Positions 24,792-64,000 of a stretch of DNA of 64,000 nucleotides are shown in pieces. The position numbers and the translations under genes were made by a program. The stretch spans positions 558,001 through 622,000 of the forward strand of contig CANMDF010000003.1 of assembly GCA_947496605.1 (NCBI GenBank). Direction: 5' to 3'. Below the pieces are notes generated by a model. The model saw only the letters and a list, made by a program, of their open reading frames with translations, ran no database searches and was not told the DNA's origin. Position 1 is the stretch's first letter; every line of letters begins with the position of its first letter. The DNA comes from an uncultured Paracoccaceae bacterium (GTDB taxonomy: Bacteria; Pseudomonadota; Alphaproteobacteria; Rhodobacterales; Rhodobacteraceae).

Positions 24792-25615
24792 GAAAGTACC
24801 GCCGCGCGTGTTGCATCATCGACCTCTGGACGCCGACCAAACCAGCGCTCAAAACCGGGAACACCTTGGTGCAGCAGCATTCCTAGACCGTCGACTGTGA
24901 TGCAGCCTTTGTCCGATGCAGCTTTCAGGAACGGTGTACGCAGGGGATTATAGACAATGTCGGTGACAACAGCTTTGGTAGACATGGCATCTAAAGACAC
25001 TTTGAAATCATGTGCACCTGCCATTCCGAGGGATGTCGTGTTTACCACTGTATTCGCACCATCAAGCATCTTGTCAGCTTGTACCCAATCGACAACACTG
25101 ACACGTGCGCCGAAGTCGGCCCGCAAAGCCTCTGCTTTGGCGCGGGTACGATTTGCTATAATAATCTCTGGAACACCCGCATCGGCCAGCGCGACGATAA
25201 TCGCGCGCGATGCACCGCCAGCACCAAAAATCGCGGCAGGTCCTGCTTTTGGATCCCAATCTGGCGCCCCTTGTTGAAGGTTCGCCATGAAACCATAGCC
25301 ATCGGTATTATCCGCAAAAATACGGCCGTCTTCCTTAAAGGTTAGCGTGTTTGCAGCCCCTATCAGCGTTGCGCGGTCCGTGATCTGATCTGCAAACTGC
25401 ATAACGCTTACTTTGTAGGGAAGTGTGACGTTCGCGCCGATGAAACCCTGAGCTGGCAGATCACGCAAGGTTGTCTCAAGCGCGTCTTCTGTCACTTTGA
25501 TCGCAGTATACTCTCCTGCGATCTCATACCGGTTCAGCCAATAGCTGTGCAATTTGGGCGAAAGGGAATGGCTGATTGGATTACCAAGGACAGCGGCGCG
25601 GGGCATATTCGTCAT
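24788..25615 (-). CDS. aroE: Shikimate dehydrogenase
   Basis: AroE reduces 3-dehydroshikimate to shikimate with NADPH in aromatic amino acid synthesis. The 275-residue protein has the substrate site NPISHSLSPKLHSYW, catalytic Lys in NVTLPYKVSV, the nucleotide-binding motif IFGAGGASRAI and the NADP-phosphate contact NRTRAKA. It overlaps both maf and coaE by 4 bases (ATGA). Confidence 0.97.
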   Translation of the reverse strand: MTNMPRAAVLGNPISHSLSPKLHSYWLNRYEIAGEYTAIKVTEDALETTLRDLPAQGFIGANVTLPYKVSVMQFADQITDRATLIGAANTLTFKEDGRIFADNTDGYGFMANLQQGAPDWDPKAGPAAIFGAGGASRAIIVALADAGVPEIIIANRTRAKAEALRADFGARVSVVDWVQADKMLDGANTVVNTTSLGMAGAHDFKVSLDAMSTKAVVTDIVYNPLRTPFLKAASDKGCITVDGLGMLLHQGVPGFERWFGRRPEVDDATRAAVLS

Positions 25616-26211
25616 GAAGGCAATGTTCCGCGAAGTGTGAGATATGACAAGAGTTCAAGAAGCGGCAGACCGAGGACATTGAAATAATCTCCTTCAATGC
25701 GTGCAAAAAGTCGCACTCCTTCTTCCTCGAGCTTATAGGCGCCGACCGAATGTTGGATGCTGTCCCAATTGCGGTCGACATAGTCTGCCAGATACGCATT
25801 AGAAGCATCACGCATGAAAAGACGCACGACACCAACGTGCCGCCAAAGCGGTTTGCCTTCGCCGTAGATGACAGCCGCAGACAGAAGTTGGTGTTTTTGA
25901 CCGCGCAGTGATTTTAGCTGGGCCAGGGCTTCATCTGGGTTTTGTGGTTTACTGTAGATGTCCTGACCCAAAGCGAGGATTTGGTCACAACCGATGACTA
26001 ACGCATCTGGGTTGCGGGCAGCCACACGTTGGGCTTTCATTTCAGCCAACGTATCGGCAATATCACGCGGTGAGGCTTGTTCTGCTTGCAGCGACGCGCG
26101 GATCGCCTCTTCGTCGACCCGCGCGACAGAGGTTTCAAAACCAACGCGAGCATTTTCTAGGAGTTGGGCGCGAATTTTCGAACCTGAAGCAAGGATGATA
26201 AGATCGCTCAT
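25612..26211 (-). CDS. maf: Maf-like nucleotide pyrophosphatase
   Basis: Maf proteins hydrolyse non-canonical or house-cleaning nucleoside triphosphates (dTTP/UTP or modified pyrimidines) and affect cell division. The 199-residue protein begins LIILASGSKIRAQLLENA, the family's first loop, though the usual SxRR is replaced by GSKIRAQ. The region around DALVIGCDQILALGQ has the catalytic Asp/Gln. The start codon touches a perfect DnaA box. It is the first gene of the operon leading to dnaQ. Confidence 0.93.
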   Translation of the reverse strand: MSDLIILASGSKIRAQLLENARVGFETSVARVDEEAIRASLQAEQASPRDIADTLAEMKAQRVAARNPDALVIGCDQILALGQDIYSKPQNPDEALAQLKSLRGQKHQLLSAAVIYGEGKPLWRHVGVVRLFMRDASNAYLADYVDRNWDSIQHSVGAYKLEEEGVRLFARIEGDYFNVLGLPLLELLSYLTLRGTLPS

Positions 26212-26219
26212 GTGGATAA
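26211..26219 (-). promoter_or_regulatory. Perfect DnaA box beside the maf start codon
   Basis: TGTGGATAA is the exact complement of the consensus TTATCCACA. Its first base is also the first base of the maf start codon on the minus strand, so it occupies the maf ribosome-binding region. DnaA bound here could affect maf expression as well as initiation. Confidence 0.7.
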
Positions 26220-26338
26220 CCTTTGGGACAAAGCATGTGTCTTATGGCGGGTGATTTTGGGCATATCTAGTCTGGGATCAGGTTTTGGGTAGAAAACGTC
26301 CGCGCCACAGTTTTTTAGGTAATAGTTTCCACGGTGGG

Positions 26339-26347
26339 TATGGATAA
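26339..26347 (-). promoter_or_regulatory. DnaA-box-like site, one mismatch
   Basis: TATGGATAA differs from TGTGGATAA at one base. A second, weaker candidate (TGTGGAAGA, two mismatches) follows nine bases later at 26356-26364. Confidence 0.55.
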
Positions 26348-26486
26348 TTTGTGACTGTGGAAGAATCGTTGATATCAGACTGTCAACCAGGTGTGCTGCG
26401 ACAAATAGAGCGTTATTAAGAACTATAAAGCTTTGTTATTATTTATTAATTTTATGGTTTGCGCTATTTTTCATTCTGGCTTTTCG

Positions 26487-26505
26487 TTTTCCACTATTTG
26501 GATAA
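26487..26505. promoter_or_regulatory. Pair of opposed DnaA-box-like sites
   Basis: TTTTCCACT (26487-26495, plus, two mismatches) and TTTGGATAA (26497-26505, minus, one mismatch) are separated by one base, between the two A/T-only runs. Confidence 0.5.
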
Positions 26506-26616
26506 CTCTGAGGATCAAAAAAGAACCCACAGAAAATCATCTGACAAACAACATCATCATCTTTTCTTTCCTTATATATTTATTAAGGAAGAGCAGAACT
26601 AAGAGAGTAAAAACAA

Positions 26617-27066
26617 ATGATCGAATTGCTGGACAGCATTTATCCATGGATAAAAGCGTTGCACATTATGGCAGTAATCGCATGGATGGCAGGATTATTC
26701 TATTTGCCAAGATTGTTTGTGTATCATGCAGAACGCGCAAGTGTTGGATCTGAGTTGGATCACACCTTTCAGATTATGGAAGAGAAGTTGTTAAGGGTCA
26801 TTATGAACCCAGCAATGATAGTCGCCTGGATCGCGGGTTTGATCATGATTGGTCTAGGAGCTTTTGACTGGGGTGCTGCTTGGTCTTGGGTAAAGATTGT
26901 GTCAGTGATTTTGATGACTGGTGCGCATGGTTGGATGAGCGCGCGTCGTAAGGAATTTGCAGCTGGTACAAATACGCGAACTGGCCGGAGCTATCGTTTG
27001 TTCAATGAGGTGCCGACGGTACTGATGGTGTTTATCGTCGTGGCTGTGATTGTAAGACCGTTCTAA
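26617..27066 (+). CDS. hemJ: HemJ-type protoporphyrinogen IX oxidase
   Basis: HemJ is the membrane oxidase that converts protoporphyrinogen IX to protoporphyrin IX, feeding both heme and bacteriochlorophyll. The 149-residue protein has four transmembrane segments. It carries the family motif KALHIMAVIAWMAGLFYLPR with His16, the YHAE and LLRVIMNPAM segments, and the C-terminal FNEVPTVLM. Length is usual. Base composition of the start is AT-richer than neighbours, in line with its place at the origin edge. The ribosome-binding site is weak (GAGAG 8-12 bases upstream). Confidence 0.93.
   Translation: MIELLDSIYPWIKALHIMAVIAWMAGLFYLPRLFVYHAERASVGSELDHTFQIMEEKLLRVIMNPAMIVAWIAGLIMIGLGAFDWGAAWSWVKIVSVILMTGAHGWMSARRKEFAAGTNTRTGRSYRLFNEVPTVLMVFIVVAVIVRPF
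26639..26654. other. 16-bp palindrome of two overlapping DnaA-like half sites inside hemJ
   Basis: TTTATCCATGGATAAA is a perfect palindrome spanning codons 8-13 of hemJ. It contains TTATCCATG and its mirror CATGGATAA, each two mismatches from a DnaA box. It may belong to the origin array or be chance. Confidence 0.4.
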
Positions 27067-29771: not shown

Positions 29772-31649
29772 GTGTTTCACGTGAAACATCACGACTACGA
29801 CGTAATTGTCATCGGAGGCGGTCATGCGGGTGCAGAGGCTGCGCATGCTGCCGCGCGTATGGGTGTACGGACAGCGTTGGTTACGCTTACGAAGGCATCA
29901 ATCGGCGTGATGTCATGCAATCCAGCTATCGGTGGATTGGGCAAGGGCCATCTTGTTCGAGAGATTGATGCGCTTGACGGTGTGATGGGACGGGTTGCCG
30001 ATAAGGCCGGCATTCAGTTTCGGTTGCTAAACCGCAAGAAAGGCCCAGCCGTACAAGGGCCACGCGCTCAGTCGGATCGGCAAATCTATCGTAAGGAAAT
30101 GCAGGCAGAGTTGTCGATGCTAGAAAACCTTACGATCATTGAAGGTGAGGCCGTTGATTTGCAAATGGCTGATCGACGCGTCACTGGGATTAAGATGCGC
30201 GATGGTAGTGAAATAAATGCAAATAGCGTAATCTTAACGACTGGTACATTTCTAAGGGGCATTATTCATATTGGTGATGTCTCGCGGCCCGGCGGCCGTA
30301 TGGGCGACGATCCATCTGTCAAAATGGCAGAACGGCTTGATAGCTTTGGGTTACCGTTAGGGCGTCTGAAGACAGGGACCCCACCGCGGTTGGATGGACG
30401 TACAATTGCTTGGGATAAACTTGAGGCTCAGCCAAGTGACGCAGACCCAACGCTATTTTCATTCATGTCCACAGGCGTTTATGCGCCCCAGATTGATTGC
30501 GGCATCACCCACACAAACGAACATACGCACGCTATCATTCGAGAGAACTTAGGTCGTTCCGCCATGTATGGTGGTCAGATTGATGGTGTTGGTCCGCGGT
30601 ATTGTCCGTCCATTGAAGACAAGGTTGTGCGCTTTGCAGAAAAGACGTCTCACCAAATCTTTTTGGAACCCGAAGGGGTCAATGACCACACGGTTTATCC
30701 CAACGGGATCTCAACATCACTACCAGTGGATGTTCAAGAAGCTTACGTGCATTCCATTTATGGTCTTGAAAACGCAGATATAATCCAGCCTGGATATGCG
30801 ATTGAGTATGACTACGTCGATCCGCGAGCTTTACGTGCTACTTTGGAATTGCGGGATGTCCCGGGCCTGTTTTTGGCGGGCCAGATCAATGGAACAACAG
30901 GTTACGAAGAGGCGGCGGCGCAGGGCTTGGTTGCCGGACTGAACGCCGCAGCGCAGGTGCATCATCAAGAACCGGTCGTCTTTAGCCGGCGCGAGTCTTA
31001 CATTGGCGTAATGGTTGATGACCTAATCACACGAGGTGTGTCGGAGCCCTATAGGATGTTTACGTCCCGCGCCGAGTTTCGGCTTTCTTTGCGTGCAGAC
31101 AACGCAGATCAGCGGCTTACCGAGCGAGGCTATGATATTGGGTGTGTAGGTGAGGAAAGATGGATCCACTTTAGTCACAAGATGGACCAGATCGTAGCGG
31201 CTAAAGTCAAGCTGTCGGAAACAAGCCTGTCGTCACGGGAAATTGCCAGTGTCGGCGTAAAGTTGAACGCAGATGGCCCGCGCCGGACCGCATTAGAGGC
31301 GCTTGCCTTAGCGGACTTCAATTTTGAACATCTTGGCCGATTAGCTCAAGATATAGATGATATTCCATCTGATATACAAGATCAGGTAAAGAAAGACGCT
31401 CTCTATGCGCACTACATTGCAAGGCAAGAACGCGATATTGCAGCGATGGAGCGGGATGAAAAGCATCTTATCCCCGATGACTTGGACTTTTCACAGATCA
31501 GCGGACTATCGAACGAAATAGTAGCGAAGTTAGCAAAAGTATCCCCATCAACCATTGCACATGCCAGCCGAATTGAAGGTATGACGCCTGCGGCGCTTAT
31601 GTTGATCATTGGGGCGACCAAGAAACAGCAGCAGGCGACGGGTACATGA
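29772..31649 (+). CDS. mnmG: MnmG tRNA uridine-34 modification enzyme
   Basis: MnmG is the FAD-dependent partner of MnmE. The 625-residue protein begins [20 protein letters not shown] with the dinucleotide-binding [17 protein letters not shown], followed by [14 protein letters not shown] and the C-terminal helical domain that binds MnmE. The first codon is GTG at 29772, but the only ribosome-binding site (AGGGA, 29767-29771) abuts it; a second in-frame GTG at 29781 has ideal spacing and would give a protein starting MKHHDYDV. A parS palindrome covers these codons. It overlaps rsmG by 4 bases. Confidence 0.96.
29773..29788. other. parS site across the mnmG start
   Basis: TGTTTCACGTGAAACA is a perfect 16-bp palindrome identical to the consensus parS core bound by chromosomal ParB proteins. 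It encodes residues around FHVKH at the mnmG N-terminus, and parA and parB lie about 2.5-4 kb downstream. Confidence 0.95.
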
Positions 31650-32266
31650 AGACCGAGATTGGTGGGGTAAATGTTTCACGTGAAACAATTGCTGAGCTTG
31701 AGGCCTTCGCTGAGCTTATCAAGAAGTGGACGTCTAAGATTAATTTGATTGCCCGCGGCACAATTGACGACATTTGGGAGCGGCATGTTGTCGACTCGGT
31801 GCAACTCTACAAGTTTGCGCCCGCAAAGTTCACGAAATGGGTTGATCTAGGCAGCGGTGGAGGGTTCCCGGGGATTGTTATGGCGATAATCGCAAAGTCA
31901 GAGCAACCACTGGCAAGCTTCACCCTCATCGAAAGCGACCAGAGAAAGGCCACTTTTCTAAGAACGGCTGCCCGAGAGCTTAAGCTTCCCGTAGAGGTTA
32001 TCGCTCAGAGAATTGAATCTGTACCTCCTCTAGGCGCAGATGTAGTATCAGCACGGGCATTAACTGCTCTATCTGGTCTTTTGCCACTAACGCTAAGGCA
32101 TCTAGGGGGCGAAGCTGTCGCCCTTTTTCACAAGGGCCGCCAGTCTCAACAAGAAGTCGCCGAAGCAGAAAAGAACTGGTCGTTTGACCTTGAAGATTAC
32201 CCCAGTATCACTGATCCTGACGCCCGAATACTTCGTATCCAAAGGATAAACGCCCTTGCCTCATGA
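31646..32266 (+). CDS. rsmG: RsmG 16S rRNA m7G527 methyltransferase
   Basis: RsmG methylates guanine 527 of 16S rRNA in the 530 loop, a site linked to streptomycin response. The 206-residue protein has the SAM-binding motif [16 protein letters not shown] and the segment [21 protein letters not shown]. The N-terminal residues NVSRETI are encoded by a second parS palindrome. It starts in an ATGA overlap with mnmG. Its end runs 11 bases into the parA frame. Confidence 0.95.
31672..31687. other. Second parS site inside rsmG
   Basis: The same perfect palindrome TGTTTCACGTGAAACA recurs within rsmG codons 9-14, encoding NVSRET. It is 1.9 kb from the first copy and 1.4 kb from parB. Confidence 0.95.
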
Positions 32267-33053
32267 GCCAAAGATCATTGCGATAGCGAACCAGAAAGGT
32301 GGTGTTGGCAAGACAACCACGACGATCAATCTGGGTGCGGCGCTTGCTGAGAAAAACAAAAAGGTGTTGTTGATCGATCTTGACCCCCAGGGAAATGCGT
32401 CAACCGGGCTAGGTGTTGATCATGACAAGCGTGACGCCACAACATATGACCTACTTTCTGGCGATGTACCTTTCTCAGAGGCCATTCAGCAGACGTCAGT
32501 CGAAAGGCTGACGATTATTCCCGCCACCACTGATCTTAGTTCCGCAGATCTCGAGCTCATCGATAATGCCAAGCGCAGCTTTCTACTTCGCGATGTCCTC
32601 CGCAGTCATGAAGCCAGCGCAGCGGGATATGACTACATATTGATAGACTGTCCGCCGTCTCTCAATATCTTGACAGTTAATGCCATGATCGCGGCTCACT
32701 CCATTATAGTTCCGCTACAAAGTGAATTCTTCGCTCTCGAAGGTTTATCTCAGCTGATCCTGACAATCCGCGATGTGCGTCAAACGGCGAACCCAGACCT
32801 ACGCATCGAGGGGATCGCACTGACAATGTATGATAGTCGGAACAATCTTTCTCTTCAGGTTGAGGACGATGCGCGCGAAAATATGGGTGACATGGTGTTC
32901 AAGACTGTTATCCCGCGTAATGTGCGTCTCAGTGAAGCACCCTCATTCTCTATCCCTGTTCTGACCTATGACAGCGCATCAAAGGGCAGCATGGCTTATC
33001 GTGCCCTGGCGGACGAACTTATTGAAAGAACAAAGAAAAAGAGGGCTGCATAG
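32256..33053 (+). CDS. parA: ParA chromosome-partitioning ATPase
   Basis: ParA pulls ParB-parS complexes apart over the nucleoid. The 265-residue protein has the deviant Walker A KGGVGKT (14-20, with the signature Lys before GGVGK), the A' motif DLDPQGN and Walker B ILIDCPPSL. The start is a TTG at 32256: it is preceded by AAAGGA with 9-base spacing, an in-frame stop lies just upstream at 32247-32249, and the ATG at 32263 is in another frame. It overlaps the rsmG end by 11 bases. Length matches chromosomal ParA/Soj. Confidence 0.95.
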   Translation: MPHEPKIIAIANQKGGVGKTTTTINLGAALAEKNKKVLLIDLDPQGNASTGLGVDHDKRDATTYDLLSGDVPFSEAIQQTSVERLTIIPATTDLSSADLELIDNAKRSFLLRDVLRSHEASAAGYDYILIDCPPSLNILTVNAMIAAHSIIVPLQSEFFALEGLSQLILTIRDVRQTANPDLRIEGIALTMYDSRNNLSLQVEDDARENMGDMVFKTVIPRNVRLSEAPSFSIPVLTYDSASKGSMAYRALADELIERTKKKRAA

Positions 33054-33941
33054 ATGACACGTACACCCAAAAAGGCACGTGGGTTGGGCCGGGGCCTATC
33101 GGCTTTGATGTCGGATGTGGCGACTGACGATACTGTCAGTGCATTGCCAAAACGACCGGACCTTGTCGTGCCAATTGAGAGTGTTCAGCCAAACCCTGAT
33201 CAACCTCGGAGAACTTTTGCAGAAGACGCGCTTAGGGAATTGTCCAATTCGATCGCTGAGAAGGGCATAATTCAGCCCCTCATTGTTCGGAACTCACCCT
33301 CAGATGAAAATATCTATGAGATCGTCGCGGGTGAGCGGCGTTGGCGTGCGGCGCAAATGGCGAAGCTGCATGAGATTCCTGTGTTGGTGCGGTCGTACGA
33401 TGATACAGAAGTTCTCGAAATCGCAATCATTGAGAATATTCAACGGGCGGATCTTAATCCGGTGGATGAGGCTAACGGCTACAAGCAGTTGATGGACCGC
33501 TTTGGACATACACAAGATAAGCTCGCGTCGGCATTGGGCAAAAGCCGAAGCCATATCGCGAACTTGTTACGTCTGCTCAATTTACCGAGCGAAGTGCAAA
33601 CATATTTGATCAATGGTCAGATCTCGGCTGGGCATGCGCGTGCCTTGGTCGGTCATGACCAGGCAGTCGCGCTGGCACGTGAGGTCATTCAGCGAAAGCT
33701 CTCTGTACGTGAGACCGAGCAACTGGCCAAAAAGGGCCCCTCCATCAAGCGGCGTTCTGTGCCAGGCGCGCCAGTTCCCAAAGACGCGGATACAGTGCAG
33801 ATAGAGAATGAGCTTTCCGCGACGCTTGGTATGAAGGTAACGATTGATCATCCTGCCGGATCGGATGGTGGAAAGATGGTGATTGGCTATAAATCGCTTG
33901 ATCAGCTTGATGACTTATTGCGTGCGCTTTCAGGAAATTAA
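33054..33941 (+). CDS. parB: ParB chromosome-partitioning protein
   Basis: ParB binds parS, spreads as a CTP-dependent clamp and activates ParA. The 295-residue protein begins with a basic GLGRGLSALM motif, then the N-domain (VPIESVQPNPDQPRRTF) with the CTP-binding motif GERRWRA (93-99) and IIENIQRADLNP. The helix-turn-helix is ASALGKSRSHIANLLRLLNL. A C-terminal dimer domain ends in DDLLRALSGN. It starts directly after the parA stop, and its stop shares TTAA with the convergent hemW stop. Confidence 0.96.
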   Translation: MTRTPKKARGLGRGLSALMSDVATDDTVSALPKRPDLVVPIESVQPNPDQPRRTFAEDALRELSNSIAEKGIIQPLIVRNSPSDENIYEIVAGERRWRAAQMAKLHEIPVLVRSYDDTEVLEIAIIENIQRADLNPVDEANGYKQLMDRFGHTQDKLASALGKSRSHIANLLRLLNLPSEVQTYLINGQISAGHARALVGHDQAVALAREVIQRKLSVRETEQLAKKGPSIKRRSVPGAPVPKDADTVQIENELSATLGMKVTIDHPAGSDGGKMVIGYKSLDQLDDLLRALSGN

Positions 33942-62821: not shown

Positions 62822-63646
62822 TTAGTCATTGGACCGCTTTATTGGTGTTTCACTCGTATTTAGTGCATCTGCCAGCCGTGTTTTCGCACTGCCGGGCCGC
62901 AAAGGTTGCGGTTGGCTGTCGGCGGGTGCCCATCCTGTCAGCGTGATGACCTCAAAAGTGGCATCGACGCGATTCTCGTCGTTGCGGAAATTGTCAGCGT
63001 AAATGCAGGCCGCTTCGGTTAACACGTTGCGGCGGGTCGCGTGTTTGATGCGCTGATGCAGGGCGTTGTTCTCACCCATTTTGCGCAGATCATGCATCAG
63101 GTGGAACGCGTTTGCGTAGCTGACGGTCAGCAGTGTGCTGTCGGCAACCGGCAACGCGAAACCAGCGCGTTGCAATAACGCGCCAAGGTCACGGATTTCG
63201 CCCATTGGTGCGATCCGTGGCGATAGACCGCCCGCGACCACCGCCTCGGCCTCGGCCAAAGATGCACGCAGCTCGTGCAGGGTCTGACCGCCAAGAAAGG
63301 TGCAAAGCAACAGCCCATCTGGTTTTAGCGCGTGGCGTGTCTGCACAAGCTGCCCGACTGGATCATTCGCCCAATGCAAGCACATGACATGCAAAATCAG
63401 ATCGTGGGCATGAGGGGTCAGGGCCAGCGCGTCTTCATCGCTGACAATCGTGGCTTCTGGATAACGCGCGCGCCAAAAATCGGGAAAACCCGTGACAATC
63501 GCGATCGACGTAAAGGTTCTATTAACCTCAATCAGTCTCTCATGCAGTTCATCGGCGGCGTGTTCGTGCAAAAACAAGGCGCTGGGCTCGGCGCGGGCGC
63601 GGTTGCGCATCAAAGCGGCGCGGTCTGTTAGCTGGGGCATATCCAT
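62822..63646 (-). CDS. NDUFAF5-like SAM methyltransferase
   Basis: The 274-residue protein resembles the methyltransferase family that contains BioC and NDUFAF5 (a complex I assembly factor of mitochondria). It opens LTDRAALMRNRARAEPSALF, has LILHVMCLHWANDPVGQLVQ where BioC/NDUFAF5 proteins have the ALQWVND motif, and LKPDGLLLCTFLGGQTLHEL. The first SAM glycine motif is weak (IAIVTGFPDFWRARYP). It starts 24 bases from divergent comF. Role in complex I hydroxylation or assembly is by family only. Confidence 0.82.
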   Translation of the reverse strand: MDMPQLTDRAALMRNRARAEPSALFLHEHAADELHERLIEVNRTFTSIAIVTGFPDFWRARYPEATIVSDEDALALTPHAHDLILHVMCLHWANDPVGQLVQTRHALKPDGLLLCTFLGGQTLHELRASLAEAEAVVAGGLSPRIAPMGEIRDLGALLQRAGFALPVADSTLLTVSYANAFHLMHDLRKMGENNALHQRIKHATRRNVLTEAACIYADNFRNDENRVDATFEVITLTGWAPADSQPQPLRPGSAKTRLADALNTSETPIKRSND

Positions 63647-63669
63647 GCTGGGTCATTTAGGGTGCATTC

Positions 63670-64000
63670 ATGCGGTTGCAAAGCGTCATTCGGGCAATTT
63701 ATCCACCGCAGTGTGTCGCGTGTGATGCACAAACAGAAGATGACTTTGGTTTATGTGCCGCGTGCTGGACCGAAACCCAGTTCATTGGGGGGCTGGTTTG
63801 CGATAAGTGCGGGACCCCTTTACCGGGTGAGGACAGTGGTGAAATCGTCCAGTGTGATGATTGCATGACTATCGCCCGGCCGTGGGACAAGGGACGATCT
63901 GTTCTTGTTTATTCTGGTGTCGGTCGACGACTAGTGTTGGGCCTAAAACACGGGGATCGTACCGATCTTGCACCGACAGCCGCGCGTTGGATGGCGCATA
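63670..64000 (+). CDS. comF: ComF-family phosphoribosyltransferase-like protein (3' end missing)
   Basis: The frame is open from ATG 63670 to the window edge, giving about 110 residues, so it is cut at the right. It begins MRLQSVIRAIYPPQCVACDA and has zinc-finger-like cysteine pairs (CVAC, CAAC, CDKC, CDDC), typical of the ComF N-terminus; LVYSGVGRRLVLGLKHGDR leads into the PRTase domain, most of which lies beyond 64000. ComF is needed for DNA uptake in some bacteria; its role in alphaproteobacteria is unclear. Confidence 0.88.
   Translation, partial: MRLQSVIRAIYPPQCVACDAQTEDDFGLCAACWTETQFIGGLVCDKCGTPLPGEDSGEIVQCDDCMTIARPWDKGRSVLVYSGVGRRLVLGLKHGDRTDLAPTAARWMAH

Follow-up and report, generated by a model that had tools for sequence, protein, structure and literature searches.

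An AT-rich gap between maf and hemJ as the probable chromosomal replication origin of a Yoonia-like member of the Rhodobacteraceae

Results and Discussion

Divergent genes flank an AT-rich gap of 405 bp

The window, by which we mean the whole 64-kb stretch of DNA analysed, spans positions 558001-622000 of contig C3 (694 kb), which belongs to a genome of 3.47 Mb assembled in 13 contigs (G000; other genomes are likewise cited by our own labels). Two series of genes point away from each other within it. Leftward transcription covers genes for a dnaQ-like exonuclease, coaE, aroE and, next to the break, maf (25612-26211, minus strand; PF02545, E = 7.3e-45). Rightward, the order is hemJ (UPF0093; 26617-27066, plus strand; PF03653, E = 9.3e-59), rho, trmE, gidA, gidB, parA and parB. 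The reading frame at 29772-31649 is presumably gidA, a name that we assigned from the usual gene order rather than from a family search. In a protein search, the closest named relatives of Maf, among the best 80 of 546 matches, were those of Roseobacter sp. CCS2 (87%) and Yoonia maricola (86%), from which we infer a host close to Yoonia within the Rhodobacteraceae.

Between maf and hemJ lies an intergenic gap of 405 bp (26212-26616). The initial annotation had described it as AT-rich, with about 29% G+C over 26401-26616, and we measured a G+C fraction of 0.292 there against 0.530 for the whole window. The lowest-GC 216-bp windows of the 64 kb begin at 26403-26413 (0.287). Elsewhere on the contig, 18,327 windows of 216 bp were sampled, all of them above 0.292. 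Two runs consist of A and T only, one of 20 bp (26436-26455), whose sequence is weakly if at all conserved, and another of 15 bp (26572-26586). Judged by sequence, these runs and the low G+C would suit the AT-rich unwinding element of a DnaA-dependent oriC. One terminator-like site is also present in the gap (26252-26280; 0.2 expected).

A box scan located one perfect DnaA box, two sites with one mismatch (26339 and 26497), and three further sites with two mismatches at the gap, so that the perfect box, near-boxes and A/T-only runs claimed at the outset were all recovered by our scans. The perfect box, TTATCCACA (26211-26219, minus strand), overlaps the maf start codon and is supported by conservation as well. 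A middle cluster (26326-26366), which forms a conserved block in many relatives, combines a TTTCCAC arm with two minus-strand sites, TTATCCATA with one mismatch (26339-26347) and TCTTCCACA with two (26356-26364). The hemJ-side box group (26497-26531) contains TTATCCAAA with one mismatch (26497-26505, minus strand), TGATCCTCA with two (26509-26517, minus strand), and a degenerate plus-strand site, GAACCCACA, with three (26523-26531), at whose place relatives have TAATCCACA. Further towards hemJ stands a trinucleotide repeat on the plus strand, CAA-CAT-CAT-CAT-CTT (26549-26563), which reads 3'-GTT-GTA-GTA-GTA-GAA-5' on the bottom strand and is a candidate DnaA-trio-like element. It runs into a pyrimidine tract and AT-rich run, TTATATATTTATTAA (26561-26587), which from the alignment and its base composition we regard as the probable DNA-unwinding element.

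Box counts in a single genome are modest evidence

With at most one mismatch allowed, the gap holds three DnaA boxes against 0.59 expected from Markov shuffles (P ~0.02, for this genome alone), a cluster such as a DnaA-dependent oriC should have, if a modest one when this genome is taken by itself. In 458 kb of sampled sequence from the same genome, five other places of about 400 bp also contain three such boxes, and the window as a whole is not enriched for them (29 found, 39.8 expected). We therefore rejected box counting in a single genome as proof of an origin; the count is weak to modest evidence, and it is comparison between genomes that carries the claim. One of the five tying places, with three near-DnaA boxes in about 280 bp, lies at the window's right edge (63456-63731).

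The gap is conserved among relatives

For the comparison we fetched maf loci from 80 genomes of a named collection, the best 80 of 546. The divergent neighbour of maf was hemJ, whole or clipped by a contig end, in 79 of the 80 loci. One locus (L029), cut off at its contig end and hence devoid of a gap, was left out of the gap comparison. Among 79 relatives the gap measures 408 +/- 15 bp (sd; range 383-500), and in 79 of 79 it is poorer in G+C than its own locus. The 80 gaps, the window's included, average 2.35 boxes with at most one mismatch, where shuffled sequences give 0.40; ten gaps have none. Of 80 sequences, 76 have a box of this quality close to the maf start, compared with 0.75% of shuffles.

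Alignment of the gaps revealed three conserved blocks, corresponding to the maf-start box, the middle cluster and the hemJ-side module. The order within this last block is box, GGATAA, box, trinucleotide repeat, pyrimidine tract and AT-rich run; the motif CATCATC occurs in 56 of 80 gaps and CA[AT]CA[AT]C in 67. Mean conservation was 0.698 for the hemJ-side terminal module and 0.545 for the whole gap, compared with 0.566 for the intergenic leader between hemJ and rho. Since that leader is similar, we rejected the whole-gap mean as a discriminator.

The likeness to the hemJ-rho leader bears on a different reading, according to which the gap does no more than provide divergent promoters and leaders for maf and hemJ, so that its AT-richness and conserved blocks would serve transcription, with DnaA possibly regulating it. 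The gap does separate divergent genes, its conserved module stops about 30 nt before hemJ, and on average the hemJ-rho leader is conserved to a similar degree, all of which would fit. Against it, a scan for sites of the sigma-70-like type returned numbers near chance (2 found, 1.3 expected), no Rfam family matched in the gap at E up to 1, and the length stays nearly constant at about 400 bp. Together with the chromosomal context described below, these results make a purely transcriptional role highly improbable.

To search whole genomes for the hemJ-side module we used a sequence-only model, R1, made with the window excluded from 56 relative modules out of 79; the other 23, selected by eye, were dropped to reduce redundancy. 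Sixty whole genomes were searched. In G000 the model matched once, at window positions 26497-26587 (E = 5.5e-21), under strict filters that passed 68 of 341 first-look candidates to scoring and might have let a weak second site escape. In a direct search of 461 kb of the genome's own sequence, the gap was the sole match at E up to 1. Of 36 genomes of the same genus, counting G000, R1 matched 34, always at one place beside hemJ; the two genomes devoid of a match, G019 and G025, had no hemJ match either. Within these searches, with their partial scoring of candidates, the module thus behaves as a single site per chromosome, as expected of an oriC. Outside the family, weak matches were obtained in 4 of 24 genomes, lying in the corresponding chromosomal slot in G055 and G053 and outside it in G048 and G057.

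The origin slot appears to have outlived its marker genes

The Cori of Caulobacter crescentus sits between hemE and COG1806, a pair that probably reflects the ancestral order (PMC1914354). We mapped hemJ, PF03618 (COG1806), hemE and maf in 17 genomes with a hemJ match from other alphaproteobacterial families, and fetched the slots of 12 of them. The slot, defined as leftward maf with or without ppsR facing rightward hemE and/or hemJ on one contig, was intact in 11 of the 17. In ten of these genomes leftward maf faces rightward hemE and hemJ, with PF03618 present in G036, G044, G047, G049, G050 and G051 and without it in G043, G055, G057 and G059; in G039, PF03618 and maf face hemJ while hemE lies elsewhere. 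The arrangement in G053 is consistent but split, with hemE on two contigs. G040, G041, G045, G048 and G054 cannot be judged, as their genes lie on separate contigs or maf was unmatched. Where intact, the slot in other families is mostly the classical hemE origin site. That it is kept there even with hemE instead of hemJ as the right-hand gene speaks again against a gap serving only the transcription of maf and hemJ.

In the window's genome, hemE resides on another contig (G000:C2:652968-653987). Its distance from the gap is about 0.76 Mb in G015, about 1.08 Mb in G032 and, if the contig is circular, about 1.05 Mb in G028, and PF03618 had no match in G000, G015, G028 or G032. Because the slot is kept while hemE is distant and PF03618 unmatched, the origin slot would seem to have stayed in place as both of its markers left. 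The flanks of hemE contain no box with at most one mismatch in 1,981 bp, and the 1,401 bp upstream of the genome's own dnaA (L189:1171-2526) contain one; the stronger cluster near either gene that might have displaced the gap as a candidate was therefore sought in vain, and we rejected both hemE and dnaA as origin markers here. An ancestral alphaproteobacterial slot that outlasts hemE and COG1806 makes hemE an unreliable guide to the origin in this group.

The gap thus shares with Cori, as located in PMC1914354, a slot with a leftward maf/COG1806 arm and a rightward hemE/hemJ arm, AT-richness and DnaA boxes. It differs in its immediate flanks, neither of which is hemE or COG1806, the former being on another contig and PF03618 unmatched. 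Sites for CtrA (TTAA-N7-TTAA) number zero in the window's gap and occur in 7 of 80 gaps. Consensus sites for IHF, a count that would pass over degenerate ones, number zero in the window's gap and occur in 9 of 80. Given the absence of both kinds of consensus site, regulation probably differs from that of Caulobacter Cori.

GC skew and parS support the region

Two perfect parS sites, TGTTTCACGTGAAACA at 29773-29788 and a second at 31672-31687, were found by motif scan, followed by parA and parB (32256-33941, plus strand; PF13614 for the former, PF02195 and PF17762 for the latter). Both sites lie 3-5 kb from the gap on its hemJ side, and they are the only ones in the genome at up to two mismatches. 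The position claimed for the gap, at the break between leftward and rightward genes and close to parS and parAB, is borne out by these coordinates. Almost all genomes analysed in PMC8116508 have parAB near the origin, with some exceptions; the same source suggests coverage gradients for locating origins.

We measured GC skew on sampled 20-kb stretches; with G000 in 13 contigs, these do not add up to a whole-chromosome curve. On C3, skew is negative in 11 of 14 stretches left of the window, strongly positive in the 8 kb containing the gap, and positive in the two stretches sampled beyond the window's right end. With finer sampling, the cumulative minimum fell at 555 kb of C3, 29 kb from the gap at 584 kb, and the corresponding offsets, all to the maf side, were 32 kb in G015 and 89 kb in G032. 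Coarser sampling of four large contigs, taken as circles with steps of 139-191 kb, placed the minimum on the maf side in G016 (57 kb away), G015 (93 kb) and G032 (171 kb) and on the hemJ side in G028 (35 kb), with maxima roughly opposite. The skew minimum, which the initial annotation had named as a check, is therefore near the gap in all five contigs sampled (29 to about 170 kb) and exactly at it in none: GC skew backs the region, not the exact gap.

The shift to the maf side in all three finer-sampled genomes, and in three of the four sampled coarsely, would also be expected if the true origin lay 30-90 kb in that direction, leaving the gap as an origin-near regulatory or DnaA-titration site. 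Yet the offset varies (29, 32 and 89 kb) and takes the opposite sign in G028, the sampling is coarse and the curve flat near its minimum, the module was found nowhere else in the R1 searches, and the parS sites are beside the gap on the hemJ side. An origin on the maf side is accordingly extremely improbable in our estimate. A skew shift can in any case span a fairly large region (PMC1914354). The skew and parS context suits an origin at the gap better than a region devoted to transcription.

Two features of base composition and gene orientation were noted in passing. Between 2676 and 20059 of the window, long open reading frames run mostly rightward, towards the proposed origin and opposite to the usual orientation bias, which counts against an origin at the gap; such frames may account for part of the flat skew minimum. 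A stretch of 10 kb in G032 (L162:1-10000, equal to G032:C2:2340001-2350000) has 26.8% G+C against about 58% beside it, and is perhaps a foreign island.

The maf-hemJ gap as the probable oriC

Conservation among relatives, the single R1 match, the match to the alphaproteobacterial slot, the nearness of the skew minimum and the lack of box clusters at hemE and dnaA together lead us to read the maf-hemJ gap as very probably the chromosomal replication origin of this marine bacterium. A likely origin at this place had been put forward at the start, and it is chiefly the comparison across relatives that now upholds it. As an oriC the gap would be ordinary in kind; its DNA-opening element looks unusual.

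From sequence anatomy, conservation, position and skew we infer that DnaA binding, melting, helicase loading and initiation take place at the gap. DnaA would bind at three places, namely the maf-start box, the middle cluster and the hemJ-side box group, and would spread from the third along the repeats at 26549-26563 to open the AT-rich element at 26561-26587, where DnaB would be loaded and from which two forks would depart. ParB on the two parS sites would then move the duplicated origin region.

Ori-Finder predictions of oriC have been published for 101 Rhodobacteraceae chromosomes, with Loktanella vestfoldensis among those discussed (PMC6699656). That set shares with our analysis the bacterial family and the use of DnaA boxes, the GC disparity minimum and parAB proximity, and it possibly refers to the same place; its main text mentions neither 'maf' nor 'hem'. 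Judged by listings of the open-licence literature, we found no paper that describes an oriC in the maf-hemJ gap. For Yoonia/Loktanella-type Rhodobacteraceae, our results narrow the probable origin to a gap of 405 bp with conserved elements.

A possible deviant DnaA-trio

The basal unwinding system of Bacillus subtilis consists of a DnaA box and repeated 3'-GAT-5' trios, separated by a spacer whose length peaks at 10-13 bp (PMC8287927). The order found here, namely box, spacer, trinucleotide repeat and AT-rich element, is the same as in the B. subtilis oriC (PMC8287927, PMC10721633). The units differ, being mostly 3'-GTA-5' or 3'-GTT-5', and in the window the adjacent box is degenerate. Over the 80 gaps we counted 247 units in the G-first register, including 153 GTA, 48 GTT and 18 GAT; T occupies the middle position in 203 of the 247. 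Runs of at least four units with C at every third position occur in 54 of 80 gaps as compared with 11% of shuffles. Taken literally, the NAN rule (at least three trios with a middle A) yields a run of four in the window and of at least three in 79 of 80 sequences, a result that a T-rich tract gives readily.

The placement of the box is loose. A plus-strand box with at most two mismatches lies in the last 150 nt of 64 of the 80 sequences. In the window, no box of that quality stands within 16 nt of the trios, as the B. subtilis system would have it, the plus-strand site having three mismatches. Spacing from box to repeat could be measured in 52 sequences (of the 80, 3 are without a repeat core and 25 without an upstream plus-strand box at up to two mismatches) and was 19-23 nt in 32 of them, the others scattering from 4 to 53. 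We thus found no strict spacing, and the common 19-23 nt exceeds the peak of 10-13 given in PMC8287927. On the relatives' consensus, only the single CTA of CCCTA sits 13 nt from the box.

Slots from other families vary as well. GAT units are mixed with GTT, GGT or GTA in G036, G044, G050, G055 and G059, five consecutive GTT units occur in both G043 and G057, and G039 has GTA-GTA-GAA. In G047, G049, G051 and G053 the automatic longest run fell elsewhere in the gap, and no trio was called; by eye, G051 and G053 carry CTACTA-type repeats, equivalent to GAT units, near the AT-rich end.

In B. subtilis DnaA, Asn187 contacts the amino group of the middle adenine, while Arg202 and Glu228 contact the guanine; changing the middle A to T or G impairs initiation, and C is better tolerated (PMC10721633). 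The DnaA of G000 has Tyr, not Asn, where the middle base is read. Among 23 alphaproteobacterial DnaA sequences, this one included, the Asn187 position is Tyr in 21, Phe in one (G047), Arg in one (G039) and Asn in none, the Arg202 position is Lys in all 23, and the Glu228 position is Glu in all 23. The 23 include the sequences from G054, G047 and G039; G043 gave no DnaA match.

These observations suggest, tentatively and with the balance of our judgement against it, that alphaproteobacterial origins use a deviant trio in which the 3'-G is kept and the middle base is often T (mostly so in Rhodobacteraceae), matched by a class-wide change in DnaA; the protein would capture G at every third base and make little demand for a middle A. 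If this is true, the lead would test whether the code by which DnaA reads single strands differs between bacterial classes. Judged by titles, and with PMC5043019 included, we found no paper on alphaproteobacterial DnaA-trios in the open-licence literature.

Several points argue against a deviant trio. What links the change in DnaA to the units is correlation within a single class, and the same Tyr is present in families whose units are GAT; the published NAN rule can be satisfied by an out-of-register 3'-TAG-5' or by the pyrimidine tract; the adjacent box is degenerate in the window; and the 19-23 nt between box and repeat core in 32 of the 52 sequences measured is beyond the published range. 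A trio variant restricted to Rhodobacteraceae we rejected, since GTT units are present in other families too and the loss of Asn187 extends across the class.
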